This document shows, piece by piece, positions 2 to 10,720 of a DNA stretch of 10,766 bases. The notes under the pieces were generated by a model that was not told the DNA's origin, made no database searches, and saw nothing but the letters and a program-made list of their open reading frames with translations. The position numbers and the translations under genes are program-made. The stretch comes from Gallionellaceae bacterium (GTDB taxonomy: Bacteria > Pseudomonadota > Gammaproteobacteria > Burkholderiales > Gallionellaceae), in the NCBI GenBank assembly GCA_947445045.1, contig CANFCA010000017.1, positions 1 to 10,766 of the forward strand, written 5' to 3'. Positions within the stretch are counted from its first letter, which is position 1, and every line of letters begins with the position of its first letter.

Positions 2-1120
2 AAATTTCCACCCTATGCATCAGTCATCACCGCCACCTTGCAGAAAAAAGGGGCGGATATGTTCAAGCTGCTGCGCAAGAGTGACGTGTTACTACACCAC
101 CCCTTTCAATCATTTCAACCTGTCATCAGTTTCATCCAACAAGCTGCCTCTGATCCGCAAGTGGTGGCGATCAAGCAAACTGTGTATCGCACGGGGGTCG
201 ATTCCGCATTGATGGAAGCCTTGATCGCTGCCGTTCAGGCCGGAAAAGAAGTGACTGTAGTGGTAGAACTGATGGCGCGTTTTGATGAAGAAGCTAATAT
301 CAACTGGGCGAGCAAACTGGAAGAAGTCGGCGCGCATGTGGTGTATGGCGTAGTGGGTCACAAGACCCACGCAAAAATGATTATGGTGGTTCGTCGCGAA
401 GAGGGGAAACTTCGTCGCTACGTACATCTAGGCACTGGCAATTACCATCCCCGCACGGCACGTTTTTATACTGACTTTGGGTTATTCACTTGTCAGCCTG
501 AAATATGCGCCGATGTGAACCAGGTATTTTCACAGCTAACCAGCTTAGGTAAGGCAGGGGCTTTGCAACATTTATGGCAATCTCCGTTCACGTTACACAG
601 CCAGATTTTGCAAGCCATACACAACGAAACCAAACTCGCCAAGGCAGGCAAAAAAGCACACATCATCGCCAAAATGAATGCGCTATTGGAGCCCACCATC
701 ATTACCGCGTTGTATGAAGCTTCGCGGGCAGGCGTAAAAATTGATTTGATTGTGCGCGGGGTATGCGCGCTTCGCCCCGGCGTGGAAGGATTATCGGAAA
801 ACATCCGCGTACGGTCGGTGATTGGACGCTTCTTGGAACATACGCGCATTTTCTATTTCCGCAACAACCTGAAACACGACACCTATTTGTCCAGCGCAGA
901 CTGGATGAACAGGAATTTCTTCCGCCGAATTGAGGTCTGCTTTCCGTTGCTCGACAAGAAACTGAAAAAGCGCGTGTTGGACGAAGGCCTGAAAATCTAT
1001 TTACGCGATAATGTTCAAGCTTGGGAAATGTCCGATAATGGGAGTTATCGCAGAAAAAAAATCCGTAACTCAACCCCAGTCTGCGCTCAAACCACTCTGC
1101 TTGCACAACTTGCCAACTAA
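2..1120 (+). CDS. ppk: Polyphosphate kinase 1, C-terminal part (5' end outside window)
   Basis: PPK1 reversibly transfers the terminal phosphate of ATP onto a growing polyphosphate chain through a phosphohistidine. The frame is open from the window edge, so about 372 C-terminal residues of a protein usually near 690 are present. They cover both phospholipase-D-like catalytic domains. The motif KTHAK contains the histidine that is phosphorylated in the family (codon 368-370). It is followed by YVHLGTGNYHPRTARFYTDF, a family signature. The second-domain histidine is in FLEHTR (codon 839-841). The C-terminus ends with the usual QAWEM...GSY block and a short tail, so the 3' end is intact. The gene converges on the small minus-strand gene next door, with 50 bases between the two stops. 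A Pho box would be expected upstream, but that region is outside the window. Confidence 0.96.
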   Translation, partial: KFPPYASVITATLQKKGADMFKLLRKSDVLLHHPFQSFQPVISFIQQAASDPQVVAIKQTVYRTGVDSALMEALIAAVQAGKEVTVVVELMARFDEEANINWASKLEEVGAHVVYGVVGHKTHAKMIMVVRREEGKLRRYVHLGTGNYHPRTARFYTDFGLFTCQPEICADVNQVFSQLTSLGKAGALQHLWQSPFTLHSQILQAIHNETKLAKAGKKAHIIAKMNALLEPTIITALYEASRAGVKIDLIVRGVCALRPGVEGLSENIRVRSVIGRFLEHTRIFYFRNNLKHDTYLSSADWMNRNFFRRIEVCFPLLDKKLKKRVLDEGLKIYLRDNVQAWEMSDNGSYRRKKIRNSTPVCAQTTLLAQLAN

Positions 1121-1164
1121 CGATTCAACGCAAGTTCGTAAATGCCCACAACATTCAATTAAGC

Positions 1165-1187
1165 AAAAATCTATGTTACAGATTTTT
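1165..1187. terminator. Weak AT-rich hairpin between convergent genes
   Basis: AAAAATCT (1165-1172) and AGATTTTT (1180-1187) form a perfect 8-bp stem with a 7-base loop. T residues continue to 1189. It lies between the convergent ends of ppk and the minus-strand gene and overlaps the latter's stop codon. Only one pair is G-C, so the stem is weak. It could be a low-efficiency bidirectional terminator, or chance in AT-rich DNA. Confidence 0.3.
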
Positions 1188-1572
1188 TTGGACGACCAGT
1201 TTTAATCGTATCCAGCTTGCCTATCGCTTGTTTAAGTTGTGCAACAGTTAACGTATCTAAGGCACGCAGACCAGCACGTAGCAACTCGCTCTTTTTGACA
1301 TGTAAACCCGCTTTTAAACAGGCTTGTTTTAATTTGGCAATGTTTGCGTAATCATCTTGCGGCATAGTAAAACTATCACGTACGACCTTGCCTTTGACTT
1401 CTGCTTTAGCTGCTGATTTTTTAACTTTCTTGTTTTTTTTGCCTGGCTTCGCAACTACTATTTTTACCACTGCAGGTTTTTGCGCAGGTGCTTTAATGGC
1501 AGCAGCGGGTTTTGTTGCAGTCACTTTTTTGGGTGTAACCTTAACTGCTGCAGGAATCTTTTTGGTTGTCAT
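1171..1572 (-). CDS. Lys/Ala-rich protein with probable ribbon-helix-helix domain
   Basis: 133 residues. I do not recognise a named family. Residues 1-62 are a low-complexity tail rich in Lys, Ala, Pro and Val (PKKVTATKPAAA, KPGKKNKKVKKSAAK), like histone H1-type or nucleoid-binding tails. Residues 64-71 (VRDSFTMP) read as a beta strand, 73-89 as helix A and 93-106 (KKSELLRAGLRALD) as helix B. This is the layout of a ribbon-helix-helix DNA-binding domain, inferred by pattern only. The start was chosen at 1572 because GGAG sits 7 bases before that ATG; the in-frame ATG at 1584 overlaps the GGAG itself. The gene is divergent from sixA across an 88-base gap and convergent with ppk. A DNA-binding, possibly autoregulatory or nucleoid-associated, role is inferred. 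Confidence 0.75.
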   Translation of the reverse strand: MTTKKIPAAVKVTPKKVTATKPAAAIKAPAQKPAVVKIVVAKPGKKNKKVKKSAAKAEVKGKVVRDSFTMPQDDYANIAKLKQACLKAGLHVKKSELLRAGLRALDTLTVAQLKQAIGKLDTIKTGRPKKSVT

Positions 1573-1592
1573 AACTTGCTCCATTGAGTTAT

Positions 1593-1620
1593 TTGAAATA
1601 ATCAGTATATACGGTATATT
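1593..1620 (+). promoter_or_regulatory. Candidate sigma70 promoter of sixA with overlapping palindrome
   Basis: TTGAAA (1593-1598) and TATATT (1615-1620) are separated by 16 bases and each match the sigma70 consensus at 5 of 6 positions. The expected start is near 1627, giving a leader of about 34 bases with AGGGGG before the sixA ATG. The perfect palindrome ATATAC-G-GTATAT (1607-1619) overlaps this -10. It also overlaps a TATACT on the minus strand (1609-1604) that could serve the divergent gene. The palindrome could be an operator. Confidence 0.45.
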
Positions 1621-1660
1621 CTTACTATTGAATTGTAATATTTGAGACTAGGGGGAAATC

Positions 1661-2113
1661 ATGGAGCTGATCTTATGGAGGCATGCTGAAGCAGAAGATG
1701 GCGTGCCTGATTTAGAACGTGCTTTAACTGCCAAAGGTCGAATTCAAGCAGAAAAAATGGCGGCCTTTTTAAGGGTGCATTTACCCCCCGATACTCGAAT
1801 TCTGGTTAGCCCCGCCAGACGTACTCAACAAACCGCAACTGCACTTAACCGACACTACATTACCGAACCTCTCATCAAGCCCGGTTGCTCACCAGAAGAT
1901 GTGCTTCAAGCCGCCAATTGGCAAGATAAAACGGGCTGCGTGTTAATTGTTGGGCATCAACCTACGCTCGGTTCAGTTGCTGGACTGCTCATGACCGGGC
2001 AAGCACAATACTGGAGCGTCAAAAAAGGCGCGGTCTGGTGGCTCAATAGCCGCGAGCGCGGTGGCGAGACGCAAACCACTTTGCGCCTGACACTCTCGCC
2101 TGATTTTTTATAA
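1661..2113 (+). CDS. sixA: Phosphohistidine phosphatase SixA
   Basis: 150 residues, the normal length for this single-domain member of the histidine phosphatase (phosphoglycerate mutase-like) superfamily. SixA removes phosphate from phosphohistidine in phosphotransfer proteins; in E. coli it acts on the nitrogen-PTS protein NPr. The catalytic RHAEAE motif is at residues 7-12 (His8 nucleophile), the SPARRTQQTA arginine motif at 50-59, and the second histidine in VGHQPTLG (His99). There is no signal peptide, so it is cytosolic. The ATG at 1661 follows AGGGGG at a good distance. It lies close to ppk, with only the small divergent gene between them. Its local substrate is unknown; a link to phosphate or polyphosphate signalling is inferred from position only. 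Confidence 0.93.
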   Translation: MELILWRHAEAEDGVPDLERALTAKGRIQAEKMAAFLRVHLPPDTRILVSPARRTQQTATALNRHYITEPLIKPGCSPEDVLQAANWQDKTGCVLIVGHQPTLGSVAGLLMTGQAQYWSVKKGAVWWLNSRERGGETQTTLRLTLSPDFL

Positions 2114-2141
2114 AGCATCCACGTGACCTTGAGTTAACTGG

Positions 2142-2161
2142 GTTCCCGCTTTCGCGGGAAC
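2142..2161. repeat. REP/dRS3-like palindrome downstream of sixA
   Basis: GTTCCCGC (2142-2149), loop TTTC, GCGGGAAC (2154-2161): a perfect 8-bp GC-rich hairpin 28 bases after the sixA stop. It resembles the dispersed TTCCCGC...GCGGGAA palindromes found in many copies in beta- and gammaproteobacteria (the neisserial dRS3 type). No T-run follows, so it is not a standard terminator, although it could protect the sixA mRNA 3' end. Only one copy is visible in this window. Confidence 0.6.
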
Positions 2162-2194
2162 GACAAAACCAAATAAATCAGCGTCTCCCTAGTA

Positions 2195-2250
2195 TTGCAA
2201 CCAGCTTGCAACACTAGCTTCATTCAATTGCAACATTGCTTAACTATGCT
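2195..2250 (+). promoter_or_regulatory. Candidate Pho-box array and -10 for the GGDEF-olsA operon
   Basis: Four 7-base units lie 11 bases apart: TTGCAAC (2195), TTGCAAC (2206), GCTTCAT (2217) and TTGCAAC (2228). Exactly 10 bases after the last unit is TATGCT (2245-2250), a 4/6 match to TATAAT. This is the PhoB geometry, with the last box replacing the -35. The array closely parallels the one before the porin gene (first spacer CAGC against CAGA, third unit ending TTCAT, last unit ending AAC). The predicted start near 2257 leaves a short leader with AGGA before the ATG at 2282. The individual units are degenerate relative to CTGTCAT. Confidence 0.5.
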
Positions 2251-2281
2251 GGTGCTATCTGACACGCATAGGACATTGATC

Positions 2282-3325
2282 ATGGAAGCAAGTATTAAAA
2301 ATTCCTCAAGCACAGCCCTCGGCTTTACCGTCGAGAAAATTATGCGCTTTGTTGAGCCCATATTTCCTGAAACACCTATCGAAACCCTATCCGCCCTATT
2401 TTCAGCAAATCATAGCCTGTGCGCTATCCCTGTCGTCAAGAATGGTTGCCCAGTGGGATTGATCCAGCGTTTTCAACACATAGACAAATTTGCACAACCG
2501 CAACCCGTCGAGTTGCTCGACAAAAAGTATTGCTCGGAACTCATGAATGCGCAGCCCTTATTGGTGGAGAAATCTACGCCTATAGATGAAGTCAGTCAGT
2601 TCTTAAGCCAAACCGACATGCAGCAGTTTGTCGATAATTTTATTATCACCGAACAAGGTCGCTACATCGGACTAGGCACAAGCCAAGACCTGCTGCGTGA
2701 AATCACCCATTCACACATCTCGACTTCACGCTATGCCCATCCTTTAAGCATGTTGCCCGGCAGCGTACCCATTAACGAACATATAGAACGTTTACTTCAA
2801 TCCGGAAAATCATTCGCCGTCTGCTATGCCGATCTGGATTACCTCAAACCATTTAACGACAAATATGGCTATCGAAAAGGGGATGAGCTGATTCAGTTCA
2901 CCAGCAAACTACTCAGCCAAATTTGTGACCCGACACAGGACTTTATTGGACATATCGGCGGCGATGATTTTATTTTCATTCTACAAAGTAAGGATTGGGA
3001 ACAGCATTGTCATCGCGCACTCGCCTCCTTCGCGCAAACTTCTTCAGGGCTATTTGATAAACAACACCGCGCGATGGGCGGCTATAAAATTGAGGATAGA
3101 CAAAGCCGAATTGTCCACCACCCCTTACCCACCCTCTCGATAGGTGTAGTTTGGGTTACCCCTAAGTTGTTTGATTCACATTATGAAATTGTCGAAGCCG
3201 TCACCACCGCCAAAATCATGGCGAAGAAGAAACCCGGCAACAGTTTGTTTATCGAACGTCGTCACCCCAACTCTTACAAGGTAAGTGAAACGCAACGCCA
3301 GAATGCCGAGGTCTTTTATGGATAA
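2282..3325 (+). CDS. CBS-CBS-GGDEF signalling protein, possible diguanylate cyclase
   Basis: 347 residues, cytosolic, with no membrane segments. Residues about 16-72 and 82-142 look like a pair of CBS domains, which in other proteins bind adenosine nucleotides. Residues about 150-325 form a GGDEF domain with ADLDYLKPFNDKYGYRKGD and the signature GGDDF at 226-230. GGDEF domains make cyclic di-GMP from two GTP. Here the fourth signature residue, a metal-binding Glu, is Asp, and the Arg of the upstream RxxD inhibitory site is absent. Activity is therefore uncertain and product inhibition unlikely. The start at 2282 has AGGA 8 bases upstream. Earlier in-frame starts have no ribosome site, and the ATG at 2246 lies inside the proposed -10. 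The stop overlaps the start of the next gene by 8 bases, so the two are probably translationally coupled. Confidence 0.85.
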   Translation: MEASIKNSSSTALGFTVEKIMRFVEPIFPETPIETLSALFSANHSLCAIPVVKNGCPVGLIQRFQHIDKFAQPQPVELLDKKYCSELMNAQPLLVEKSTPIDEVSQFLSQTDMQQFVDNFIITEQGRYIGLGTSQDLLREITHSHISTSRYAHPLSMLPGSVPINEHIERLLQSGKSFAVCYADLDYLKPFNDKYGYRKGDELIQFTSKLLSQICDPTQDFIGHIGGDDFIFILQSKDWEQHCHRALASFAQTSSGLFDKQHRAMGGYKIEDRQSRIVHHPLPTLSIGVVWVTPKLFDSHYEIVEAVTTAKIMAKKKPGNSLFIERRHPNSYKVSETQRQNAEVFYG

Positions 3326-4190
3326 GCCTTCATCAAATTGGCTGATTAGTTTATTGCGCATCACGCGACTTGCCATCCATCTTACTTACGGCATATTGCT
3401 AGCGATCATTCACCCTCATCTCAATCAAGCTAGGCAAAGACGGGTTTTGAAGACCTGGAGTAAACAACTACTCGAAATTTTTAACATCGGCATTCAAATT
3501 GAAGGGCTGCAACCTTCTCGAAGCGAATCAGGTTGCCTGATAATCGCCAATCACGTTTCGTGGCTTGATATATTTGTCGTGAATGCCATTCACCCCTCAC
3601 GCTTCATCGCCAAGTCAGAAGTGAGTGAGTGGCCTATCATTGGCTGGCTATGCAAACGCAGCGGCACAATATTTATTGACCGCGCATTACGCCAAAAAAC
3701 TTCTGCCGCTAACTTGCGCATCAGTCTGTTGCTTGAACAAGGAACGTGTGTCGGGCTTTTTCCCGAAGGTACGACGACAGACGGCAAGCAGGTTGGTCAT
3801 TTCCATTCCTCACTTATCCAACCCGCAATTGATACACACGCAAGAATTTTCCCAATCGCACTGCGCTACCAAGATGATGATGGTGAAGCAGATTCCGCTG
3901 CTCCTTTCATCGGCGATACCACGTTAGTGCAGTCAATCTGGCGGATTATTCGTCGCTCACACCTCAACGCATTAGTGGTATTTACGCCTGAGTTATCGAC
4001 TGCAGATATGGGTCGTCGTGTGTTGGCACGCGCGGCACAAGATTCAATTGCACAAGCGTTACAAACAATAGGCACTACCCGACATGAGGCTGAATATCAG
4101 CCTGAGCCAGACTTTTCAAGCCCCAGACTCTCCGCACAATCAAGCTACGCATTATTAGTCGATCCACTATTGAATCATCAAACCAAGTAG
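3318..4190 (+). CDS. olsA: Lysophospholipid/lyso-ornithine-lipid acyltransferase (PlsC/OlsA family)
   Basis: 290 residues. PlsC-family enzymes transfer an acyl chain to a lyso-lipid; OlsA acylates lyso-ornithine lipid to ornithine lipid. A hydrophobic N-terminal segment (about residues 10-31) suggests inner-membrane attachment. Acyltransferase motifs appear in order: NHVSWLD at 78-84 (the catalytic HxxxxD), GTIFIDR at 116-122, FPEGTT at 148-153 and the Pro of FPIALRY at 179. The ATG at 3318 is chosen because GAGG lies 6 bases before it; upstream GTG and ATG codons lack a site. It overlaps the GGDEF gene's stop. The olsA assignment rests on the OlsB-like gene 90 bases downstream. Without that context, a general 1-acylglycerol-3-phosphate acyltransferase would be equally possible. 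Confidence 0.82.
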   Translation: MDKPSSNWLISLLRITRLAIHLTYGILLAIIHPHLNQARQRRVLKTWSKQLLEIFNIGIQIEGLQPSRSESGCLIIANHVSWLDIFVVNAIHPSRFIAKSEVSEWPIIGWLCKRSGTIFIDRALRQKTSAANLRISLLLEQGTCVGLFPEGTTTDGKQVGHFHSSLIQPAIDTHARIFPIALRYQDDDGEADSAAPFIGDTTLVQSIWRIIRRSHLNALVVFTPELSTADMGRRVLARAAQDSIAQALQTIGTTRHEAEYQPEPDFSSPRLSAQSSYALLVDPLLNHQTK

Positions 4191-4191
4191 A

Positions 4192-4247
4192 AATTCACAC
4201 TTTCTTCACATTCCCGTCATCGCGCTGCAACACAGCCTCCCTAATCT
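4192..4247 (+). promoter_or_regulatory. Candidate Pho-box array and -10 for olsB
   Basis: Units 11 bases apart: AATTCAC (4192), TCTTCAC (4203), CCGTCAT (4214, one mismatch from CTGTCAT) and CTGCAAC (4225). Ten bases after the last unit is TAATCT (4242-4247), a poor 3/6 -10. The array fills the gap between olsA and olsB. It would give olsB its own phosphate-starvation promoter in addition to readthrough from olsA. The spacing agrees with the other arrays in the window; the weak -10 is typical of activator-dependent promoters but lowers certainty. Confidence 0.42.
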
Positions 4248-4280
4248 ACACGCATCTTTAATCACTCAAAAGAGGATGCG

Positions 4281-5030
4281 ATGCTAGAACTCAACCGCCA
4301 ACCCCAAGCAGTCTCTCACCGGCAATTAACCACCAGTCTCGCACACAGCGAAGCAGAAATACTCGAAGCACAACGTTTGCGCTTTAAAGTATTCTGTGAA
4401 GAAATGGGCGCGACACTAGCCAGCGCGAAAGAAGGCATAGACCGCGATATTTACGACAAATACTGCGAGCATTTATTGGTACGTGAAAGTGAAGAAAATA
4501 AAGTGGTGGGAACATATCGCATCCTGTCACCCGATCAGGCCAAAAAAATTGGCGGCTATTATTCTCAGAGCGAATTTGATTTAACCCGGCTGATGCACCT
4601 CAGTGATCGAATGGTGGAAGTCGGTCGTTCATGCGTGCATAAAGATCATCGTGACGGTGCGACCATTACTCAATTGTGGGGAGGACTTGCGCAATACATG
4701 CAGCAACACAAACATGAATATCTGATTGGCTGCGCCAGCATCAGCATGGCGGATGGTGGCCATGTGGCGGCTAGCATTTACCGAAAATTGCATCGTCTTT
4801 ATTCCGCACCCACCGAATACACGGTGTTTCCGCGTTATCCCTTGCCATTGCACGCACTCAATCAATTACTCGATGCGCCGATTCCGCCCTTGCTAAAAGG
4901 CTATTTGCGACTAGGCGCGTATATCTGTGGCGCTCCTGCTTGGGATCCAGAATTCAATACTGCTGACTTGCTGATCCTATTACCCATGTCGCGCATGAGC
5001 AGCCGCTATGCAAAACATTTTCTAAAATAG
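4281..5030 (+). CDS. olsB: L-ornithine N-alpha-acyltransferase OlsB (GNAT fold)
   Basis: 249 residues. OlsB uses a 3-hydroxyacyl-ACP to acylate ornithine, the first step to ornithine lipids, which replace phospholipids during phosphate starvation in many bacteria. Family features in order: AQRLRFKVFCEEMGA (30-44), DIYDKYCEHLLV (56-67), GTYRIL (78-83), EVGRSCVHKDHRDG (113-126), LIGCASI (148-154) and a C-terminal block with DPEFNTADLLILLP...RYAKHFL. No signal peptide is present. GAGG lies 5 bases before the ATG. Together with olsA it completes the two-step pathway, although the usual order in the literature is olsB then olsA. Related GNAT acylhomoserine-lactone or PEP-CTERM-linked acyltransferases are less likely given the C-terminal block. 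Confidence 0.88.
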   Translation: MLELNRQPQAVSHRQLTTSLAHSEAEILEAQRLRFKVFCEEMGATLASAKEGIDRDIYDKYCEHLLVRESEENKVVGTYRILSPDQAKKIGGYYSQSEFDLTRLMHLSDRMVEVGRSCVHKDHRDGATITQLWGGLAQYMQQHKHEYLIGCASISMADGGHVAASIYRKLHRLYSAPTEYTVFPRYPLPLHALNQLLDAPIPPLLKGYLRLGAYICGAPAWDPEFNTADLLILLPMSRMSSRYAKHFLK

Positions 5031-5054
5031 AGGGGTATCCATAAGGGCTAGTGT

Positions 5055-5110
5055 TTGTAACCAGAACGTTATATTGAATTCATCAAACTGTAACATTTGA
5101 TATTTATTAT
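5055..5110 (+). promoter_or_regulatory. Candidate Pho-box array and -10 for the porin gene
   Basis: Four units 11 bases apart: TTGTAAC (5055), ACGTTAT (5066), AATTCAT (5077) and CTGTAAC (5088). Exactly 10 bases later is TATTAT (5105-5110), a 5/6 -10. The predicted start near 5117 gives a leader of about 105 bases ending in AGGAGA before the ATG. The array makes the porin a likely phosphate-starvation gene. The rest of the 192-base gap (5111-5208) shows no further clear element to me. Confidence 0.6.
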
Positions 5111-5222
5111 TCCGTCCGTCGCAAACTGGCGGCTTTAATAAAACCACATAAGTATTGGACTAATGCGCGAAGAAGCTGCGCCCAAGCCACTACTAAATAT
5201 AAATGACTAGGAGAGTTTAACA

Positions 5223-6389
5223 ATGCAAAAGAAACTAATCGTTGTCGCACTGGCTGCGGCTTTTACCTTGCCTGTAGTGGCACAGGCTGAGAACGGCAAC
5301 TTCACATTTTATGGCGTGGCTGATCTGTCATATGACATGGTTAACACAGGCGATGGAGTAACTACTGCTAACGGCACAACTTCTGTAAGTGGTGCAAGCA
5401 AACGCGTGGTGTCCAGCAACGTATCTAAATTTGGCTTCAAAGGCACCGAAGATTTGGGCGACGGCCTGTCTGCAAACTGGCAAGTTGAACAGCAAGTCAA
5501 CTTCGATGATGCCGCCAAAAATACTTTCGCCAGCCGTAACACATTCGTTAACCTAAAGAGCGAAAAAATCGGAACTGTATTGTTTGGTATTCATGATACC
5601 CCGTACAAATTTGCGACTCGCAAACTGGATATGTTTGGTGACAATGTAGGTGATAACCGCGCTTTAATGGGCGCTCCAAAAAGTGTTGCTGCTGTTGCTG
5701 TAACAGCCACTGCAGGTGCAGCCCCCTTTAATGGTGCTTCCAACCAAGGATTCGAGCTTCGCCCGAACAACATCTTGATGTACACCAGCCCAACTTTTTC
5801 AGGTTTCAATGCAGCACTTGCTACTGTAAATTTGACAGAGCAAAACTATGTTAATACTGATAAAAGAAACAATTTGGTAAGCTTAGCTGTAATGTATGAC
5901 CTTGCACCTTTCTACGGTTCTGTAGCACACGAATCACACAAATTAGAAACTCTCGGCTCTGCATCAGTTGGTCAAGATGAATCTGCTACCCGCCTAGGAT
6001 TTGCTTTCCGTCCAGAAGATCAACCCTTTGAGTTAACTGCCGTGTATGAAAAAACTACTGATAATCTCGGCGCAGCCAAAGCCAACTTATTTGGTCACAG
6101 CTCAGCTTATTTAGGTGCAAAGTACATGATGGGCAACAATGCAGTTAAATTGGGATATGTTAAGGCTGGTACATTGGGTGCAGTTGCCAATAGCGGCGCG
6201 AACCAAATTTCTGTAGGTTACGACCACGGTTTAAGCAAACGCACGAAACTATATGCCCTGTACACAAAAATTAGCAACGGCAAAGGTATTAACTACGGTT
6301 TCTCACAAAGCTCAGGTGCTGCAACGACCAACTCTGGCTTTGGCACATCACCTTCAGTTGTTTCATTGGGTGTGAAGCACACGTTCTAA
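5223..6389 (+). CDS. Outer-membrane general porin, Gram-negative Porin_4 type
   Basis: 388 residues. Residues 1-22 are a signal peptide (Lys-Lys, hydrophobic core, AQA cleavage site), and the mature protein begins ENGNFTFYGVADLSY, the usual first strand of beta-proteobacterial trimeric porins. Other family features are SNVSKFGFKGTEDLGDGLSANWQVEQQ, SRNTFVNLKSEKIGTVLFG with the following DTPYKFATRKLD constriction-loop region, alternating amphipathic strands, and a C-terminal phenylalanine (GVKHTF) for BAM recognition. It forms a diffusion channel in the outer membrane. The upstream Pho-like array suggests a phosphate-starvation porin, analogous in role but not in sequence family to E. coli PhoE or Pseudomonas OprP. 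Ion selectivity cannot be read from the sequence. AGGAGA is 8 bases before the ATG, and a strong terminator follows. Confidence 0.92.
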   Translation: MQKKLIVVALAAAFTLPVVAQAENGNFTFYGVADLSYDMVNTGDGVTTANGTTSVSGASKRVVSSNVSKFGFKGTEDLGDGLSANWQVEQQVNFDDAAKNTFASRNTFVNLKSEKIGTVLFGIHDTPYKFATRKLDMFGDNVGDNRALMGAPKSVAAVAVTATAGAAPFNGASNQGFELRPNNILMYTSPTFSGFNAALATVNLTEQNYVNTDKRNNLVSLAVMYDLAPFYGSVAHESHKLETLGSASVGQDESATRLGFAFRPEDQPFELTAVYEKTTDNLGAAKANLFGHSSAYLGAKYMMGNNAVKLGYVKAGTLGAVANSGANQISVGYDHGLSKRTKLYALYTKISNGKGINYGFSQSSGAATTNSGFGTSPSVVSLGVKHTF

Positions 6390-8508: not shown

Positions 8509-8542
8509 CTGTAATAATCCTGTAACACAACCGACATAACAT
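8509..8542 (+). promoter_or_regulatory. Pho box and -10 of pstS
   Basis: CTGTAAT (8509), spacer AATC, CTGTAAC (8520): two close matches to CTGTCAT, 11 bases apart. A third unit, CCGACAT (8531), follows in phase. Ten bases after the second unit is TAACAT (8537-8542, 4/6 to TATAAT). The predicted start near 8549 gives a leader of about 65 bases. This is the clearest Pho box in the window and sits where the family's best-known PhoB target promoter is expected. The DNA from 8427 to 8508 shows nothing I can assign. Confidence 0.7.
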
Positions 8543-8615
8543 GCCCTTCGCAATAAGATATTGTTGATTCAAATAACACCCCAAAGCAGCACTTAATTCA
8601 ATGGAGACATATTTA

Positions 8616-9665
8616 ATGAATAGCAAACTCAAGCAACTCATCATCGGCATCACGGCTGCTACAGCGGTGGCTTACGCTGGCGCAAGTTTGGCGGTCAATA
8701 TCACGGGTGCAGGCGCAACTTTCCCTTACCCCGTTTATGCCAAATGGGCAGAAGCCTATAAAGCCGCAACTGGCACTGAAATGAATTACCAGTCGATAGG
8801 CTCTGGCGGCGGCATCAAACAAATTCAAGCTAAAACCGTGGACTTCGGTGCAACGGATGCGCCTATGAATCCTAACGAACTGGCACTGGGCGGCTTTGCT
8901 CAGTTCCCAACTGTTATAGGCGGCGTAGTCCCAGTAGTTAACATCGCTGGCGTAGCAGCAGGTCAATTAAAATTGGACAGCAAAGTGCTGGTTGATATTT
9001 ACATGGGCAAAATCACCAAGTGGAATGATCCACGCATCGTTGCAGACAATGCGGGCGTAGCTTTGCCAGATCAAGCAATCACCGTGGTTCACCGTGCTGA
9101 TGGATCTGGCACGACATTCATTTTCACCACTTACTTGTCACAAGTCAGCCTAGATTGGAAGCGCAGTGTGGGCGGTGATAAAGCCGTGTCGTGGCCCGCA
9201 GGGACAGGTGGAAAGGGCAACGAAGGTGTCGCTTCTTATGTGCAACGCATCAAGGGTGCAATCGGCTATGTGGAATATGCCTACGCCTTACAAAACAAGA
9301 TGAATTTTGCACAAATGAAAAACCGCGATGGTCAGTTTGTTTCACCTAGCGATGTTAGCTTCAAGGCTGCCGCAGCAAATGCCAAATGGGAAAAGGACAA
9401 TGGTTTCTACGAAATCCTGACCAATGAGCCTGGCAAAGAAAGCTGGCCTATCACTGGTGCAACGTTCATTTTGGTTCCTAAAGCACCGGAAAAAATCGAA
9501 AGCGCAAAAGAAGTGTTGAAGTTCTTCGATTGGGCTTACGCGAATGGCGACAAGCTGGCTTCTGATTTGGATTACGTGCCACTTCCAACTAACGTTGTCA
9601 CCATGATCCACGATGCATGGAAAACCCAAATCAAAGACGCGAGCGGAAAAGCACTCTGGAAATAA
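8616..9665 (+). CDS. pstS: Periplasmic phosphate-binding protein PstS
   Basis: 349 residues, the high-affinity periplasmic receptor that delivers phosphate to the PstCAB transporter. A Sec signal peptide covers about residues 1-26 (Lys-Leu-Lys, hydrophobic Ala-rich core, likely cleavage after SLA). Phosphate-binding segments appear in order: GAGATFPYPVY (31-41), SIGSGGGIKQI (60-70), DFGATDAPM (76-84), HRADGSGTT (159-167) and GTGGKGNEGV (196-205). The length is normal. The ATG at 8616 is chosen because GGAGA lies 8 bases before it; the in-frame ATG at 8601 overlaps that site, and using it would put acidic METYL in front of the signal peptide. It is the first gene of the pst operon and lacks a lipobox cysteine, so it is soluble. 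Confidence 0.97.
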   Translation: MNSKLKQLIIGITAATAVAYAGASLAVNITGAGATFPYPVYAKWAEAYKAATGTEMNYQSIGSGGGIKQIQAKTVDFGATDAPMNPNELALGGFAQFPTVIGGVVPVVNIAGVAAGQLKLDSKVLVDIYMGKITKWNDPRIVADNAGVALPDQAITVVHRADGSGTTFIFTTYLSQVSLDWKRSVGGDKAVSWPAGTGGKGNEGVASYVQRIKGAIGYVEYAYALQNKMNFAQMKNRDGQFVSPSDVSFKAAAANAKWEKDNGFYEILTNEPGKESWPITGATFILVPKAPEKIESAKEVLKFFDWAYANGDKLASDLDYVPLPTNVVTMIHDAWKTQIKDASGKALWK

Positions 9666-9674
9666 GCTAGCAGC

Positions 9675-9708
9675 GTGTAACAAAAACGTCACATCATTAA
9701 GTTATAAT
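9675..9708 (+). promoter_or_regulatory. Candidate internal Pho promoter before pstC
   Basis: GTGTAAC (9675), spacer AAAA, ACGTCAC (9686), then exactly 10 bases, then a perfect TATAAT (9703-9708). The two units are weaker matches to CTGTCAT than those at pstS, but the spacing is the same as in the other four arrays and the -10 is the best of all. The predicted start near 9715 gives a leader of about 43 bases. The -10 overlaps the 5' arm of the hairpin described next. Confidence 0.48.
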
Positions 9709-9735
9709 TGCGGGAGCTGTTGCTCCCGCAATTAT
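9704..9735 (+). terminator. Intercistronic hairpin between pstS and pstC (attenuator or mRNA stabiliser)
   Basis: A 14-bp perfect stem: 9704-9717 (ATAATTGCGGGAGC) pairs with 9722-9735 around a TGTT loop. It is followed by TTTAA, a poor T-run. In transcripts from pstS this should cause partial termination or protect the pstS 3' end, giving more PstS than membrane components, as is usual for binding-protein transporters. Because it contains the -10 at 9703-9708, transcripts starting near 9715 would lack most of the 5' arm. Confidence 0.8.
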
Positions 9736-9757
9736 TTTAACCAAGCAATATTTAATT

Positions 9758-10720
9758 ATGCCGAAGTTTTCACTCGAAGCACGCCTAAAACGCCAAGCAG
9801 TGCTAGATATGCTGTTCCGCACGCTGACACGTATATCGGCCTTTAGTGTATTGGCTTTGTTAGCGGCGATTATTTTCTCATTAGTGGTGGGCAGCATGCC
9901 TGCCATTCACGCGTTTGGCTTTGGCTTTTTGACAAGTTCGGAATGGGACCCGGTCAACGATAAATTTGGTGCGTTGATTCCTATCGTCGGCACACTTATC
10001 ACATCAGGCATCGCATTGCTAATTGCGATTCCGGTCAGTTTTGGCATCGCGATATTTTTGACTGAACTTTCCCCGCGCGTTTTACGCCGCCCACTTGGCA
10101 TCGCCATTGAGCTACTTGCAGGTATCCCCAGCATTATTTACGGCATGTGGGGATTGTTCGTTTTTGTACCAGTATTCGCCGATCATGTTGAGCCGTGGCT
10201 CAATGACCACCTTGGCGTTTTGCCTTACATCGGTCCTTTATTTGCTGGACCACCCATGGGTATCGGCATTCTTACCGCCAGCATTATTTTATCAATCATG
10301 GTGATTCCGTTTATCACCTCGGTAATGCGCGATGTTTTTGATGTTGTGCCAACTTTACTCAAAGAATCTGCTTACGGTTTAGGTGCAACCACATGGGAAG
10401 TGATGTGGGGCATTGTGTTGCCTTACACCAAAGTCGGCGTGGCGGGCGGCATCATGCTGGGTCTCGGTCGAGCACTCGGCGAAACCATGGCGGTGACCTT
10501 TGTCATTGGTAATGCCCATGAACTCACCAAATCGCTGTTGATGCCTGGCAATAGCATTTCCTCTGCTCTGGCTAACGAATTTACCGAAGCGGTAGGCGAG
10601 CTTTACACGTCATCGCTGATTGAGCTTGGCTTGATATTGTTCTTCATTACCTTCGTAGTTTTATCTATCGCCAGATTCATGCTCTACAAGCTGGGACAAC
10701 GCGAAGGACAGGCGGCATGA
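9758..10720 (+). CDS. pstC: Phosphate ABC transporter permease PstC
   Basis: 320 residues, one of the two inner-membrane permeases of the PstSCAB phosphate importer. It has about six hydrophobic helices (the first near residues 26-46), a periplasmic loop with [27 protein letters not shown] (family signature), [15 protein letters not shown] at 118-132, and the cytoplasmic EAA loop [20 protein letters not shown] at 203-222 that contacts Pst[10 protein letters not shown] follows at 238-246. The length is normal. The ATG at 9758 gives a typical charged N-terminus, but no purine-rich ribosome site precedes it (CAATATTTAATT). No better start is visible. The stop overlaps the pstA start in ATGA. Confidence 0.96.

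Follow-up and report, generated by a model that had tools for sequence, protein, structure and literature searches.

Internal promoters of the Escherichia coli pst operon were reportedly described by Spira et al. in 2010 (doi 10.1007/s00438-010-0584-x). PMC12096839 cites later pst genes of E. coli as able to have internal promoters. With E. coli examples in print, the mere presence of a promoter inside pst is no novelty. The locus described here resembles the E. coli operon in that a candidate promoter for later pst genes lies inside the operon. By contrast, the pstS-pstC gap of E. coli K-12 has a different hairpin, REP-like by eye, and no TATAAT.

A second precedent comes from single-molecule studies. 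According to PMC6978380 and PMC6978322, polymerase stays on the DNA after intrinsic termination and can restart at nearby promoters, and PMC6978322 presents a sense promoter beside an intrinsic terminator as a possible gene-coupling device. The pst gap has this arrangement, a putative sense promoter adjoining a presumed intrinsic terminator. However, the evidence in these papers is restart in vitro and, in cell data, antisense starts close to terminators, whereas the pst case is known from sequence only. No report of a promoter nested in the pstS-pstC terminator is present among the matches listed from the open-licence literature, as judged by titles and the starts of abstracts.

The window, which is the whole 10,766-nucleotide stretch of DNA analysed, comes from a Gallionella-like, iron-oxidizing bacterium. 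Its closest named pstC (98%) is that of a Gallionella sp. MAG, L070, whose pstS-pstC gap is identical to the gap of locus L004. The gap of the window is likely to hold a conserved housekeeping-type promoter inside the terminator that follows pstS, a nested element that would separate pstCAB from pstS. The second gene, pstC, can probably be expressed on its own through this promoter. With terminator and start site overlapping in the same bases, the first gene (binding protein) and the permease and ATPase genes could be controlled separately within less than 40 bp. In this group, pst would no longer be regarded as a simple PhoB operon, because pstCAB probably has a Pho-independent source.

The pstS-pstC gap of the window

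The features of the window, in the order of their coordinates, are:

2–6389: ppk1 (partial), SixA-like, GGDEF, two ornithine-lipid-type acyltransferase and porin-like genes, upstream of ars and pst
8509–8526, + strand: Pho-box-like site of the pstS promoter, CTGTAATAATCCTGTAAC, 14/18 matches to the E. coli consensus
8601–9665, + strand: pstS, phosphate-binding protein (NCBIfam NF008171, E = 6.7e-135, above cut-off)
9675–9692, + strand: two Pho-like units, GTGTAAC-AAAA-ACGTCAC, 13/18 matches to the E. coli consensus, not conserved
9698–9702, + strand: TAAGT, extended -10-like element, with the G at -14 at position 9701
9703–9708, + strand: TATAAT, putative -10 of the internal pstC promoter, conserved among relatives
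9704–9717, + strand: 5' arm of the hairpin, ATAATTGCGGGAGC, 100% complementary to the 3' arm
9714–9716, + strand: predicted transcription start inside the 5' arm, about 7 nt past the -10
9718–9721, + strand: hairpin loop, TGTT
9722–9735, + strand: 3' arm of the hairpin, GCTCCCGCAATTAT, 100% complementary to the 5' arm
9730–9738, + strand: T-rich tail after the G+C core, AATTATTTT, presumed U-tract of the terminator
9758–10720, + strand: pstC, permease (NCBIfam TIGR02138, E = 1.2e-93, above cut-off)

The gap between pstS and pstC is 92 nt long and carries both TATAAT and the hairpin. The first-pass annotation placed the hexamer over the base of a perfect 14-bp stem, and a check of the sequence confirms these coordinates; it also confirms that TATAAT starts 10 bases past the second Pho-like unit. 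The gap contains a G+C-rich hairpin, as expected of an intrinsic terminator, and, 10 nt before the -10, a direct repeat of CTGTCAT-like units. The fold of positions 9640–9790 has a z-score of -3.34, and none of 200 shuffles is equally stable. Only TTTAA follows the full 14-bp stem; six of the nine bases that follow the G+C core are T. Shine-Dalgarno pairing before pstC (9739–9757) is not evident by eye.

Transcription generally starts about 7 nt past a -10 element, and this spacing was used for predicting the start site. RNA that begins at about 9715 was expected to lack the hairpin. This expectation is borne out by folding: positions 9715–9757 reach -4.6 kcal/mol, compared with -24.3 kcal/mol for 9698–9757. 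A consensus scan finds no sigma-70 site in the gap of the window, which can be read as a consequence of the window having no -35. The same scan does not list the hairpin of the window among its terminators, in our reading because the long stem consumes most of the T tail. Known cis-regulatory RNA families of Rfam have no match in the window at gathering score.

Conservation at the pst locus of relatives

The comparison is based on three sets of loci. A PstC search matched, at any strength, 75 of 76 genomes of the genus, and the genus set consists of the 64 loci with both pstS and pstC, from which the gaps were extracted; L059 (no pstS, at a contig edge) and the distant second copies L068 and L069 were dropped. 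A scan of named genomes added 32 gaps, and most of the named relatives are metagenome assemblies. Across the family, 66 of the 78 genomes searched have a PstC match; G082, G083, G084 and G087 were left out, and G135 and G150 have a PstC match with gaps that were not included. Removal of 24 duplicates from the 164 loci left 140 distinct stretches ahead of pstC, including four loci without pstS and six (L134 and L145–L149) that are outside the family or doubtful for it.

TATAAT is present in 108 of the 140 stretches, compared with 6.8 expected from shuffles. The reverse complement of the word occurs in two of the same stretches and the reversed word in three; therefore, TATAAT is directional and points towards pstC. 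The distance from its end to the hairpin loop is 8–12 nt in 52 of the 64 genus loci, mostly 9 or 10 nt, which would place the start of the predicted RNA inside the 5' arm and leave the RNA without the hairpin. Over all 140 stretches, TATAAT lies at 8–12 nt in 85, which is a lower bound because the hairpin finder picked another stem in L064, L128 and L223. Gaps with TATAAT (108) have a median folding energy of -5.75 kcal/mol for RNA from the predicted start and of -20.55 kcal/mol for RNA from pstS. The full contrast, with the long RNA below -12 and the truncated RNA above -8 kcal/mol, is reached in only 67 of these gaps.

GnTATAAT and the hairpin are kept together at this one locus in much of the family. 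The opposite pattern, a stem that is kept where the -10 is lost, is limited to a minority: TATAAT is missing from the hairpin in 12 of the 64 genus loci, and L019, L020, L024, L026, L029 and L063 are among those that nevertheless have a good hairpin. Of the 12, three have TATAAT elsewhere (L024, L061 and L062), L014 has TATACT and L040 has TATATT, and the remaining seven (L019, L020, L026, L029, L063, L066 and L067) have none. Variants of the word include TACAAT, TACCAT and TATACT. TAnnnT is kept in 25 of the 51 hairpins that lack an exact TATAAT at 8–13 nt before the loop, the 25 being the difference between 110 relaxed and 85 exact matches among the 136 stretches with a usable hairpin (4 of the 140 have none). 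L226, L204, L265, L120 and L124 carry TACAAT exactly where TATAAT otherwise precedes the hairpin. The T tail is less general among relatives than the -10, with at least five T in the eight bases after 93 of 139 detected hairpins. Pairing of TATAAT within the stem is rare: the stem begins at its second base in 4 of the 64 genus loci (the window, L004, L007 and L060).

The element is largely restricted to pst. The pattern TATAATNNCGGGGG occurs in 46 of the 76 genus genomes at 47 places, compared with 11 places for the reversed control. Of 158 family genomes, 73 have a stem-plus-TATAAT pattern, compared with 3 for the reversed control. In 67 of the 73 it is located 26–171 nt upstream of a PstC match, in two (L266 and L267) it closes pstS at its 3' end where the contig breaks off, and the four that are unplaced have the same letters as the named pst loci L086, L097/L106 and L121. 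None of 35 background terminators from 400 kb of five relatives has TATAAT at the corresponding place, whereas among 96 pst loci the same detector calls a terminator in 55, and TATAAT is present in 47 of these. A chance origin of TATAAT is rejected by the shuffle, reversed-word and background controls. A genome-wide repeat is rejected, since the pattern is nearly single-copy and sits at pst. A feature of the whole order is also rejected: in an even sample of 399 order genomes (reversed control in four), the 10 matches comprise 8 of 13 family genomes and 2 of the 386 others.

Promoter signal or stem base

Of the 96 loci on a tree, 64 could be anchored by the G-run in the 5' arm, so that their stem core is fixed by construction. 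The other 32 lack CGGG[GA] plus a C-rich 3' arm, and some of them have a shifted or lost TATAAT. In the anchored set, the number of changes is 5, 5, 5, 5, 5 and 4 for the six columns of TATAAT, 4 for the G at -14 and 17 for the free base that separates the two; it is 8 for T-17 and 12 for each of positions -16 and -15. Two bases lie between TATAAT and the stem core, with 19 and 12 changes, and each of 19 columns farther upstream has 13–24. Outside the anchored stem core, TATAAT and G-14 are thus the most constant columns. Conservation through pairing would leave the bases next to the core no less constant than TATAAT; since these bases are the more variable ones, pairing does not explain why the word is kept.

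The sigma-70 extended -10 motif is TRTGnTATAAT. The element resembles this motif in its constant TATAAT and G-14 and in the frequency of T-17 and A-16 in the anchored set (50/64 and 46/64; T-17 is present in 52 of the 108 gaps overall). G stands two bases before TATAAT in 104 of the 108 gaps, compared with 8 of 29 background TATAAT words, not all of which are necessarily promoters. Unlike in the motif, position -15 is A or G in 101 of 108 gaps and T in two, and the -10 overlaps a terminator stem. TTGACA-like -35 words with at least four of six matches peak at a spacer of 16, where they occur in 31 of 108 gaps, compared with 0 to 11 gaps at spacers of 8–15 and 17–31. CTGACA-16-TATAAT is present in 19 of the 108 gaps.

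Intrinsic terminators are often A-rich on their 5' side, and five bases of TATAAT are paired in the window. The word could accordingly be the A/T-rich base of the stem, retained for A-tract/U-tract pairing in termination and not for initiation. This explanation is highly improbable: the positions that link the word to the core have 19 and 12 changes as against 4–5 for the word itself, L062 has TATAAT and the terminator in separate places, none of the 35 background terminators has the word there, and in nearly all genus loci the conserved G-14 is not part of the detected stem. The word could also be a signal for sigma-dependent pausing of elongating polymerase before it reaches the terminator, or a site of RNase processing, and neither would be a start site; a -10-like word directly before a hairpin is compatible with both, and processing between pst genes is known elsewhere. 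However, sigma-dependent pauses are mostly promoter-proximal, whereas the element lies about 1.1 kb from the start of the operon. It is retained at three pstC copies for which no pstS was found upstream, and RNA processing would not account for a conserved G with a free base after it. A pause or processing signal is exceedingly unlikely.

The nested promoter could also be controlled by Pho, with the units at 9675–9692 replacing the -35 and PhoB activating pstCAB in starvation. In favour of this, the window has no -35, and a score of 13/18 at the right distance from the -10 is reached by 0.6% of 2000 shuffles of the surrounding 45-nt stretch. By contrast, the best Pho match ahead of the internal TATAAT has a mean of 9.17 in 99 gaps, which is at the level of shuffles (8.98), whereas upstream of pstS the mean is 13.6/18 compared with 11.1 for shuffles (99 loci). 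Of the 99 gaps, only that of the window scores 13/18, and three others score 12. The -35 place is taken by CTGACA in the 19 gaps noted above. Pho control of the internal start is unlikely and would be at most a feature of the lineage of the window. The first-pass annotation had proposed an internal promoter that expresses the permease genes independently in starvation. The internal promoter is well supported by the comparison, whereas the starvation part finds no support in relatives, in which the proposed regulatory units are not conserved even though the box of the pstS promoter is clear.

Proposed mechanism and variant loci

The sequences themselves are observed, as are the degree to which they are conserved, their direction, their typical spacing and their confinement to pst; from these we infer promoter activity, a start site, partial termination and a basal role for the nested promoter as follows. 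Polymerase from the Pho-controlled pstS promoter would transcribe the entire hairpin, and partial termination at the T-rich tail would keep pstS expression above that of pstCAB. A sigma-70 extended -10 promoter (GnTATAAT) in the hairpin base, with a -35 in some lineages and a weak one elsewhere, including the window, would produce RNA that begins near the top of the 5' arm. Such RNA could not form the hairpin and would continue unimpeded into pstCAB, so that the nested promoter may supply basal pstCAB while the Pho promoter is off.

It is conceivable, if doubtful, that the two signals are coupled more closely: polymerase arriving from pstS would release its RNA at the U-tract but remain bound to the DNA, slide back about 25–35 bp and restart at the nested -10. 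The resulting pstCAB mRNA would be free of the hairpin and would track pstS transcription without full readthrough. A weak -35 would suit a promoter that is fed by polymerase already on the DNA. Presence of a -10 (TATAAT or TAnnnT) and of a strong T tail agree in 4.7 and oppose each other in 0.1 of nine independent pairs (median p = 0.125). When the -10 is restricted to an exact TATAAT at the hairpin, the values are 5.7 and 1.9 of 13 pairs (median p = 0.289). This covariation fits termination followed by restart, is not significant, and is suggestive only. The nested site offers a natural, conserved place for testing restart in cells by polymerase retained after termination.

Variant loci show that the distance between the candidate start signal and the hairpin is not fixed, and that RNA would usually, but not always, escape the hairpin. 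L062 has a terminator after pstS and a separate TATAAT about 50 nt before pstC, with no comparable hairpin following it. In L226, L240 and L245, the upstream stretch that was covered contains no pstS on the strand of pstC, and a -10-like word (TACAAT in L226; TATAAT and TAAAAT in L240 and L245) and the hairpin are kept. L240 and L245 are second pst loci in genomes of a shared genus (G102 and G094) and probably represent a single event; the same genomes have the pstS-bearing loci L239 and L244. In the genus g11, TATAAT lies about 24–28 nt before the loop (42 nt in L262), and at this greater distance the g11 RNA would contain the hairpin. Many g11 loci have a weaker TAAAAT or TACAAT still at the hairpin base, and L257 and L258 have lost the upstream TATAAT.

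Other arrangements were observed in single gaps. L231 has three TATAAT words, 14 nt apart, ahead of the hairpin. In L110 and L131, an upstream 12-bp inverted repeat takes in the first three bases of TATAAT, which leaves the -10 with a hairpin on either side. An additional hairpin immediately ahead of the -10 was rejected as a general feature, with perfect stems of at least 7 bp in 8 of 67 gaps compared with 1.15 in shuffles.

The gene pstC is predicted to be the first of an independent pstC-pstA-pstB unit. The order pstC, pstA, pstB is found in the relative L270, and pstB is in the same row in L275; phoU does not directly follow the pst row in either. A phoU match is present in 30 of 31 genomes searched, on the pst contig in some (for example G066) and on a separate contig in the genome of the window. 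The rest of the gene content of the window consists of ACR3 and an ArsC-like gene, followed by pstS and pstC. The block of ppk1, SixA-like, GGDEF, OlsA-OlsB-like and porin-like genes beside ars and pst looks like a phosphate-stress neighbourhood, with the SixA, acyltransferase, porin and ArsC matches all below curated cut-offs. OlsB-like and SixA genes are also located near the second pst locus, L275.
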